Source of the DNA: Halobacteriales archaeon QS_9_70_65
GTDB taxonomy: Archaea; Halobacteriota; Halobacteria; Halobacteriales; Haloarculaceae
Assembly (NCBI GenBank): GCA_003023535.1
Contig: PXSC01000146.1
Coordinates: forward strand, 1,043-6,801
DNA length: 5,759 nucleotides
Direction: 5' to 3'
Part shown: one piece after another, positions 2,930 through 5,759 of the stretch
How positions within the stretch are numbered: the first letter of the stretch is position 1
Layout of the letters: each line of letters begins with the position of its first letter
The notes under the pieces: model-generated
What the model saw: the letters and a program-made list of their open reading frames with translations, nothing else
Databases searched by the model: none
What the model was told of the DNA's origin: nothing
Made by a program: the position numbers and the translations under genes

Positions 2930-3064
2930 TTACTGGACGTTTACTTCCTTGATGTCGCGGCTCCGCTCCTTCAGCAGGACGCGGTGCCCGCAGTACGGAC
3001 AGCGGACGCCGCCGTACTCGTCGAGTTCGACGTCGCGCTTGCAGCGGGAGCACTTGTAGCTCAT
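2930..3064 (-). CDS. rpoP: DNA-directed RNA polymerase subunit P (Rpb12/RpoP)
   Basis: The gene encodes 44 residues, exactly the usual haloarchaeal length. It begins [20 protein letters not shown] and continues [20 protein letters not shown] before ending VNVQ. The zinc ribbon uses Cys5, Cys8, Cys22 and Cys25 (CxxC...CPYCG). The basic C-terminal stretch after it is the typical Rpb12 tail that contacts the polymerase assembly platform (Rpo3/Rpo10). All key residues are intact. The ATG lies only 2 nt after the TGA of the L37Ae gene (sequence TGACGATG on the minus strand), so the two are almost certainly translated from one mRNA, with translation of rpoP coupled to termination on the short upstream gene. 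pcc1 follows after 28 nt. It is easily missed by gene callers because of its size. Confidence 0.95.
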
Positions 3065-3066
3065 CG

Positions 3067-3177
3067 TCAGGCGTCGTCCTCGCCGAGGGCGGCGCGGATC
3101 GAGCGGGTGACGGTCTCGCCGGCCGCGTACCGGGCGCCGAACCGCCCCGCGCTGCCGGTGGAACCTCGTTCGGCCAT
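3067..3177 (-). CDS. rpl37ae: 50S ribosomal protein L37Ae (eL43), internally deleted: zinc ribbon missing
   Basis: This is a 36-codon gene. The N-terminus [17 protein letters not shown] matches the start of archaeal L37Ae ([11 protein letters not shown]), and the rest, [19 protein letters not shown], matches its C-terminus (PGGxTVRRSIRAALxED). Between these, relatives of about 90 residues carry roughly 50 more: a basic helix (RVxxRRVxEIE) and a zinc ribbon with two CxxC-type knuckles. Here no cysteine remains. The join, at about 3119-3127, keeps the frame. Everything else looks alive: a BRE/TATA placed for a leaderless start at this ATG, a proper TGA, and rpoP 2 nt downstream. Possible explanations are a true in-frame deletion with a full-length copy elsewhere, a ribosome that tolerates a minimal eL43, or an assembly collapse. 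The family call rests on both conserved ends in the correct order and on the rpoP neighbour. Confidence 0.72.
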
Positions 3178-3200: not shown

Positions 3201-3219
3201 GCATAAACCCCACGTTTCG
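3201..3219 (-). promoter_or_regulatory. BRE/TATA promoter of the L37Ae-rpoP-pcc1 unit
   Basis: Read on the minus strand, CGAAACGTGG is followed by GGTTTATGC. The TATA-like GTTTATGC (3208 to 3201) is centred about 28 nt before the ATG at 3177, and the purine-rich CGAAAC resembles a TFB-recognition element. The spacing predicts a leaderless mRNA beginning at the ATG. It shows that the short L37Ae gene still has its own promoter. Confidence 0.65.
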
Positions 3220-3259: not shown

Positions 3260-3982
3260 TCACTCCCGGAAGCCGGCCTCCGCGAGGGCGTCGTTGAGGT
3301 CCGCCCGGACGTGCTCGCCGAGCTTGCGGTCGCCGGCGGTCGTGACGACCCGGTTCTCCTGGACGCTGGAGCCGTCCCGGACGAGCAGCCGGACGTTGCC
3401 GGTGCCGTCGGCCCGGGTGGCCTTCGCCCGGACGCCCGTCCGGGAGCCGGAGCCGCCGGCGTCGATCGGGCCGGGGACGATCTTCTTCACGTGGGGGTGG
3501 TCGGCGACCGTCTCGAGGGCCGCCTGGCCGTCGCGGCCGCCGATGAGCGTCGAGTGGCTGCCGCCGAGCTTCTCGGCGACGGAGGCCTCGACGACCTCCA
3601 GGGCCGGCTCGCCGCGCCGCTCCCGGACCGCCTCGACGGGGTCGTCGTCGCGGACCCGGTAGAACGGGTAGTGTAGCTCCGCCCGGACCGACGACAGCAC
3701 CTCGCGGTCGCCGGCGGCGTACACCTCCTCGGGGCGCTTGCGCCGGACCTCGTCGGCGACCCGACCGGCGTAGTTGCGGAGTTCCGTCGTCGCCCACCGG
3801 CCCTCTTCTTCGGGTTCGGTGGTGATGGTCCGCTCGGCGACGACCGTCTCCTCGAGCAGGCAACTGACGGTCGCCCGCTCGCGGCCGCAGTCGAGAACCG
3901 CGGTGTCGGCGTTGGCGCTGCGGCAGACCAGACAGTAGTCGCCCGGCCGCTCTAACGCACTCGCACACTGCCGACACTCCAT
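3260..3982 (-). CDS. DUF2103 family predicted metal-binding protein with N-terminal zinc ribbon
   Basis: The product has 240 residues. An N-terminal zinc ribbon uses Cys3, Cys6, Cys17 and Cys20 (MECRQCASA...DYCLVCRSA), and further cysteines lie at 32 and 41. Residues ~26-135 form an acidic, mostly alpha/beta middle part. The C-terminal DUF2103 signature follows: EKLGGSHSTLIGG (137-149), then VADHPHVKKIVPGPIDAGG (159-177), with a final stretch through VRLLVRDGSSVQENRVVTT. The reading frame is open far upstream, but ATG 3982 is chosen because the zinc ribbon starts right there and a TATA box sits about 25 nt before it. The family is archaeal and uncharacterised; its placement beside rnhA, rpoP and pcc1 suggests a nucleic-acid or translation role, which is inference only. 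A long overlapping frame on the same strand has arginine-rich, low-complexity content and is a GC-driven shadow. Confidence 0.82.
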   Translation of the reverse strand: MECRQCASALERPGDYCLVCRSANADTAVLDCGRERATVSCLLEETVVAERTITTEPEEEGRWATTELRNYAGRVADEVRRKRPEEVYAAGDREVLSSVRAELHYPFYRVRDDDPVEAVRERRGEPALEVVEASVAEKLGGSHSTLIGGRDGQAALETVADHPHVKKIVPGPIDAGGSGSRTGVRAKATRADGTGNVRLLVRDGSSVQENRVVTTAGDRKLGEHVRADLNDALAEAGFRE

Positions 3983-4590: not shown

Positions 4591-5173
4591 CGAGTGCGTC
4601 GTTCACCAGGTCGTCCGCGCGGTCGTTTATCTCCCGCGGTACGTGGTCGATGGACCACTCCTCGACCCGGGCCAGCAGCTCCCGGGCCCGGATTCGCCGC
4701 TCCCGGAGCTGCGGGTCGTCGGTGTTCCACTCGCCGCGGACCTGCCGGACGACCAGCTCGGAGTCGCCCCGCACCGCCAGCTCGTCGAAGCCGACGTCGA
4801 CGGCGGCCTCCAGCCCCCGGATCAGCGCCTCGTACTCGGCCTGGTTGTTCGTCGCCCGGCCGATGCGCTCGCCGTCCTCGGCGGCGACGCCGTCGCCGGT
4901 GACGAGGACCCACCCGACCGCCGCGGGGCCGGGGTTACCGCGGGAGCCGCCGTCGAAGTAGAGGTGCGCCCGGCCGCCACCGCCCTCGAGGAGGCCGACG
5001 AGTCGGCCCGGCGACCCGCCCTGGACGACCACCTTGTCGTCGTAGGCGACCGCCGTCGCGTCGACGTGTCGCGCCCGCCACCGCTCGTGGTCGGTGTTGC
5101 CGCCGTCGACGTCGACGCCGGCCGCCTCGAGCCGTTCGCGGGCCGCCTCCGGGTCGCAGTCGACGACGGGCAC
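4583..5173 (-). CDS. rnhA: Ribonuclease HI (type 1 RNase H) with haloarchaeal N-terminal extension
   Basis: The product has 196 residues. The RNase H fold spans about 68-195 with all four carboxylates: Asp74 in AHLYFDGGSRGNPGPAAVGW, Glu113 in NNQAEYEAL, Asp137 in AVRGDSELV and Asp187 in REINDRADDLVN. His177 in IDHVPRE occupies the position of the mobile catalytic-loop histidine. Such enzymes cut the RNA strand of RNA/DNA hybrids (primers, R-loops, misinserted ribonucleotides). Residues 1-67 form a separate N-terminal module (DPEAARERLEAAGVDVDGG, then HVDATAVAYDDKVVVQGGSP) also seen in haloarchaeal RNase HI; its role is unclear. The start is GTG at 5173-5171, supported by a TATA box about 25 nt upstream; no better ATG is nearby. 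It heads a minus-strand operon with the DUF7108 gene (8-nt overlap) and is divergent from tfb. Confidence 0.93.
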   Translation of the reverse strand: MPVVDCDPEAARERLEAAGVDVDGGNTDHERWRARHVDATAVAYDDKVVVQGGSPGRLVGLLEGGGGRAHLYFDGGSRGNPGPAAVGWVLVTGDGVAAEDGERIGRATNNQAEYEALIRGLEAAVDVGFDELAVRGDSELVVRQVRGEWNTDDPQLRERRIRARELLARVEEWSIDHVPREINDRADDLVNDALDG

Positions 5174-5330: not shown

Positions 5331-5759
5331 ATGACACGGCCCACCCGCCAGCGGGAGCGCGAGGAGTCCGACGCCGAGCAGGACGAGCGGAGCGACGCGG
5401 CGGCCTGTCCGGAGTGTTCCTCCGAGGAGATAATCAAGGACGGCGACCGGGGCGAACTCATCTGCGAGGACTGTGGGCTCGTCGTCGAGGAGGAACACAT
5501 CGACCGCGGGCCGGAGTGGCGGGCGTTCAACCACTCCGAGCGGCAGTCGAAGTCCCGGGTGGGGGCGCCGACGACCCAGACGATGCACGACAAGGGGCTG
5601 ACCACCCAGATCGACTGGAAGGACAAAGACGCCTACGGTCGGTCGATCTCCTCGAAGAAGCGCTCCCAGATGCACCGACTGCGGAAGTGGCAGGAGCGCA
5701 TCCGCACCAAGGACGCCGGCGAGCGCAACCTCCAGTTCGCACTCAGCGAGATCGACCGG
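5331..5759 (+). CDS. tfb: Transcription initiation factor B (TFB), N-terminal part (3'-partial)
   Basis: The frame is open from ATG 5331 to the last base, giving 143 codons with no stop. After a charged N-terminus (residues 1-24) comes the TFIIB zinc ribbon: Cys26, Cys29, Cys45 and Cys48 (ACPECSSEE...LICEDCGLVVEEEHIDRGPE). The conserved EWRAFNHSER (62-71) and the B-finger/linker region (SRVGAPTTQTMHDKGLTTQI) follow, then WKDKDAYG and the start of the first cyclin repeat (RLRKWQERIRTKDAGERNL). TFB recruits RNA polymerase to TBP-bound promoters and sets the start site. All key residues seen are intact, so this looks like a functional general factor, unlike the fragment at 470-854. The second cyclin repeat lies outside the window, so the two cannot be compared directly. 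rnhA is divergent on its left. Confidence 0.95.
   Translation, partial: MTRPTRQREREESDAEQDERSDAAACPECSSEEIIKDGDRGELICEDCGLVVEEEHIDRGPEWRAFNHSERQSKSRVGAPTTQTMHDKGLTTQIDWKDKDAYGRSISSKKRSQMHRLRKWQERIRTKDAGERNLQFALSEIDR

Follow-up and report, generated by a model that had tools for sequence, protein, structure and literature searches.

In-frame absence of 51 codons from the eL43 (L37Ae) gene next to rpoP in a haloarchaeal contig, probably an assembly or library artefact

Two forms of the ribosomal protein eL43 (L37Ae), one with four cysteines and one with none, are present among haloarchaea. The four-cysteine form is that of Haloarcula, known from solved 50S structures in which the protein is named L37Ae (e.g., 3cpw and 1vq4); chain 3cpw_Y is homologous to the protein of L001, one of the nearest relatives of the locus described here, along residues 3 to 86 of the latter. 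The cysteine-free form occurs in Natronomonas and other haloarchaea (L001, L002, L004 to L009, and others), has 86 to 92 residues with a basic helix and a central segment, and is encoded next to rpoP. Cysteines are likewise absent from chain 9l94_R (8 entries), a protein named eL43 in a solved ribosome, over the part that aligns to L001 (residues 7-87 of 89). Here, we analyzed a haloarchaeal stretch of DNA of 5,759 nucleotides (the window) in which an ORF next to rpoP resembles the cysteine-free form in position and in the absence of cysteines, whereas it lacks both the basic helix and the central segment. The features discussed are listed in Table 1.

Table 1. Positions of the features in the window
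Feature	Position	Strand	Remarks
TFB gene	start near 5331	plus	
RNase H-like gene	5173-4583	minus	upstream of DUF7108
DUF7108 gene	4590-4036	minus	upstream of DUF2103
DUF2103 gene	3260-3982	minus	upstream of the stub; served to locate the locus in relatives
TTTATG element	3202-3207	minus	25-30 nt 5' of the stub ATG; identical in L001
eL43/L37Ae stub ORF, 36 codons	3067-3177	minus	17 initial and 18 final codons of the 87-codon gene of relatives, joined by one hybrid codon
Junction	3125/3126	minus	blunt join lacking 153 bp of L001; imperfect GGCCGG repeat adjacent
rpoP (RNA polymerase subunit P, 44 aa)	2930-3064	minus	spacing to the stub as in L001
Pcc1 gene	2632-2901	minus	downstream of rpoP; diverged from the relatives' copy

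A scan of genome contigs with the DUF2103 protein yielded 282 relatives, the best 80 of which were taken as loci. The nearest ones were L001 (MAG QS_4_69_225), L002, and L003 (MAG QS_8_69_73), with L008 further off. Protein identity between the window and L001 was 93 to 97% for TFB, RNase H, DUF7108, and DUF2103, 96% for the gene at 2-430, and 100% for RpoP; the DUF2103 protein of L003 was 96% identical to that of the window over 222 residues. At the same place, between DUF2103 and rpoP, L001 and L002 have an eL43 gene of 87 codons and L008 one of 89 codons.

The ORF running from 3177 to 3067 encodes 36 residues without a single cysteine. Its two ends can be aligned with the intact genes of L001, L002, and L008, and the first 17 and last 18 residues of the L001 protein are identical to those of the stub. 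Such agreement of both ends with a full-length gene at the same place in these relatives means that the likeness to L37Ae is not due to chance and, judged by this alignment, the ORF is the eL43 gene with 51 codons missing in frame. The first-pass annotation had described a cysteine-free L37Ae ORF of 36 codons composed of two joined ends, a loss of about 50 codons near 3119-3127 without a shift in frame, and an rpoP start 2 nt beyond the stub stop. All of this is borne out: the loss amounts to 51 codons joined at 3126/3125, the ATG of rpoP lies at 3064, and the start, the stop, the spacing to rpoP, and the TTTATG element, which we take to be TATA-box-like, are kept. As a protein, the stub falls outside the eL43 family in length, with 36 residues compared with the 86 to 95 residues of the genes read in relatives. 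Its similarity to the Pfam profile PF01780 is confined to residues 6-19 and remains below the cut-off of 21.9 (13.4 bits, E value of 0.082).

An eL43 gene was found by script in 66 of the 80 loci; four cysteines are encoded in 40 of these genes and no cysteine in the other 26. Those of Haloarcula are among the 40, whereas the window ORF is devoid of the entire middle part. According to the first-pass annotation, a Cys4 zinc ribbon had been removed from the protein. This view has to be abandoned, because the nearest relatives belong to the cysteine-free group and the full-length genes read in L001, L002, L004 to L009, L011, and L012 encode no cysteine, so that the missing part held no such ribbon. 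Together with chain 9l94_R, these relatives indicate that the cysteines were lost independently of the gap seen in the window. These data also show once more that a zinc site is lacking in many haloarchaeal eL43 proteins. The middle segment itself is present in all 66 genes read, the cysteine-free ones included, and the gene of L080 is cut by the end of the locus.

The abundance of short eL43 genes was assessed in the 146 genomes of the family of L001 using PF01780 at an E value of at most 0.001. Matches were obtained in 140 genomes, and 138 of them spanned the profile from position 2-4 to position 82-84 out of 85. In G053, the match is partial since about 40 codons (about 120 bp) inside eL43 are replaced by 5 Ns, and in G132, the genome of L043, the contig begins inside the gene. 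The profile was not matched in G003, the genome of L003, where a gap of 159 Ns extends from the end of DUF2103 into eL43. The same holds for G078, G128, G014, and G015, which also have no rpoP match, and for G146, with a weak rpoP match of 21.4 bits; these five genomes look incomplete at the locus because their rpoP match is absent or weak. A gapless shortened eL43 was found in none of the 146 genomes. Nor does any of them contain two full-length matches, which leaves the earlier proposal of a second full-length L37Ae gene unsupported; second matches in the family were weak (21.6 to 24.2 bits in G022, G081, G083, and G098).

The genomes behind the 14 loci in which the script had detected no eL43 gene were inspected, along with that of L080: the L003 genome gave no match, and the other 13 and that of L080 all did (14/14). 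In total, 78 of the 80 genomes contain a full-length eL43, one has the N gap (L003), and one has the contig start within the gene (L043). With the full-length L001 protein as query, 1,170 of 1,173 candidates were retrieved, and all of the 120 matches listed had at least 86 residues. Among database cluster representatives, no protein of 26 to 84 residues shared three words with the 48-residue frame that holds the stub. Among the papers listed in literature searches, titles and abstract openings mentioned neither a shortened eL43 nor a loss of cysteines in haloarchaeal eL43, which is weak evidence of absence.

Compared with L001, the first 52 nt of the stub show no differences and the last 59 nt show a single one, and both kept ends are unchanged in amino acids. 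Between 3126 and 3125, the 153 bp are absent, and no Ns interrupt the seamless join. A blunt breakpoint (GGTACG / CGGCCGGCGA) fits best, and moving it adds mismatches; a GGCCGG repeat of 6 to 7 bases lies close to both breakpoint edges and is out of register. There is accordingly no direct repeat of k-mer length at the two breakpoints. Assembly collapse in the strict sense, as considered in the first-pass annotation, fits poorly, as any repeat common to the breakpoints is at most about 6 to 7 bases long, and plain repeat collapse was rejected as the sole cause since each shift of the blunt breakpoint adds mismatches. Since simple repeat collapse does not fit the join, the explanation has to be sought in a chimeric molecule, in a gap that was closed wrongly, or in a deletion that is real. 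Two further candidates were discarded. Sequencing drop-out at a very stable hairpin was rejected, as the 60-nt DNA of L001 just left of the junction folds with a z score of only about -1.9 and stronger folds exist elsewhere in the stretch. A chimera of two distant contigs is unlikely, given that the two flanks of the stub match one and the same set of relatives, in unchanged order, and that synteny is found again at 1-430.

We consider it probable that the gap is an assembly or library artefact and that the organism possesses an ordinary single-copy, full-length, cysteine-free eL43 gene beside rpoP. The alignment of the locus in close relatives, which the first-pass annotation had proposed as a check, disclosed an intact gene at the same place in L001, L002, and L008, one half of what that annotation had named as speaking against its reading. 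With the whole gene present in close relatives, the gap is more likely to stem from a faulty assembly or library, or from a defect of recent origin, than from a new type of ribosome. The organism's gene would then have about 87 codons and an ordinary eL43 function, and would be transcribed from the kept TTTATG element, probably together with rpoP. The window presumably stems from a metagenome-type assembly, and the gap may go back to a chimera formed in the library, to a scaffold gap that was closed wrongly, or to an assembler path that skipped the central part of the gene. The part missing from the window contains, in L001, a stretch of 65 bp (4974-5038) with 31-mers common to 6 of the 77 other loci (L004 to L080), and the kept ends have no shared 31-mers. 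Such shared k-mers are a cause of breaks in metagenome assemblies and might have led to assembly failure in eL43.

Three drafts of the family (G003, G053, and G132) fail to assemble through eL43. In the size-matched control eL42, 142 of the 146 genomes gave a match, one of which ends at position 71 of 76, and none of the 142 was broken; the difference in breakage (3/141 for eL43 versus 0/142 for eL42) is not significant (Fisher P = 0.12). The contigs of the six best database matches to the L001 protein have at most 718, 821, 6,933, 1,248, 1,365, and 1,110 bases, and several lower-ranked matches are on long contigs. A search with DNA in the genus of L001 matched 19 of 20 genomes, and in the best ones (G001, G002, and G009) the match breaks into two at the junction (query position of about 176-182). 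The N runs inside the eL43 gene of two haloarchaeal drafts other than the window lie at 4669-4827 in L003 and at 1338-1342 in L095.

Several data argue against an artefact. The rpoP gene has more shared k-mers than eL43, yet it is intact, and a seamless, N-free join with a blunt breakpoint is not explained by plain k-mer collapse. In addition, the segment 3119-5758 looks well assembled since, the eL43 gap aside, it differs from L001 only by one in-frame indel of 6 bp in TFB and by indels of 1, 30, 4, and 8 bp between genes. The 159 Ns in L003 are nearer to the spacing in the window (216) than to that in L001 (411), and would fit a short gene there too; however, N-gap lengths in such drafts are unreliable, because the 5 Ns of G053 stand for about 120 bp.

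The alternative that retains some weight, although we regard it as rather unlikely, is a real and recent in-frame deletion that affects the strain as a whole or only part of its chromosome copies, with the loss of function tolerated through intact copies or another eL43 gene. Haloarchaea are polyploid. The seamless junction and the clean flanks relative to L001 are in accordance with such an event, and a blunt join next to the imperfect GGCCGG repeat would be compatible with error-prone end joining. Furthermore, the adjacent segment from Pcc1 to a TFB remnant varies between strains. The single difference in the 111 kept bases is what a young event would show. However, fourfold-site divergence from L001 is low, with about 5% in DUF2103 and DUF7108, 8% in RNase H, and 22% in the TFB part, so that the absence of decay says little on age and the event, if real, may date from any time since about the split of the strains. 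The family survey, with no gapless shortened and no second full-length eL43 in its 146 genomes, also weighs against a deletion. If real, the stub is most likely non-functional because the segment present in all genes read is missing. A real deletion would mean that a ribosomal protein that is full length in nearly every relative can shrink to its two ends, and caution is called for since the shortening is seen in a single contig.

Very improbable is a functional mini-eL43, in which a haloarchaeal lineage that had already lost the zinc ligands then lost the central segment and now assembles ribosomes with the two kept ends as a 36-residue peptide. The in-frame join and the unchanged amino acids at both ends agree with this idea, and the earlier loss of zinc ligands might have left the middle less constrained. 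In contrast, an in-frame outcome is expected by chance in one of three cases, the middle is kept even in cysteine-free genes, and neither the search for short proteins nor the family survey returned a comparable form. We found no evidence for the changed ribosome with a ribbon-less eL43 that had been proposed. It is equally hard to credit that the stub survives solely as a translated leader coupling translation to rpoP: the 2-nt spacing, the start, the stop, and the TTTATG element are kept, but both spacing and promoter derive from the full-length gene, as the spacing is also 2 nt in L001 and ranges from -4 to 39 in the other loci. The coupling noted in the first-pass annotation is therefore ancestral and not special to the stub, and it reflects no adaptation and provides no evidence for a leader role.

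Downstream of rpoP, the window departs from its relatives. The Pcc1 protein is only 63% identical to that of L001 (50/79), whereas those of L001 and L003 agree at 98 of 107 residues and the neighboring genes of the window are 93 to 100% identical to L001. From this comparison, the Pcc1 region is a local replacement that starts after rpoP, with synteny returning at 1-430. The remnant of a second TFB gene lies at 485-860, with the part 589-900 matching the TFIIB repeat (PF00382, E value of 4.8e-18), and DNA related to this remnant is present in L002 and L003. The strain-variable segment also encodes, at 1578-2417, a protein of 279 residues with no Pfam match, the start of which (INRRTALK) we take to be twin-arginine-like.
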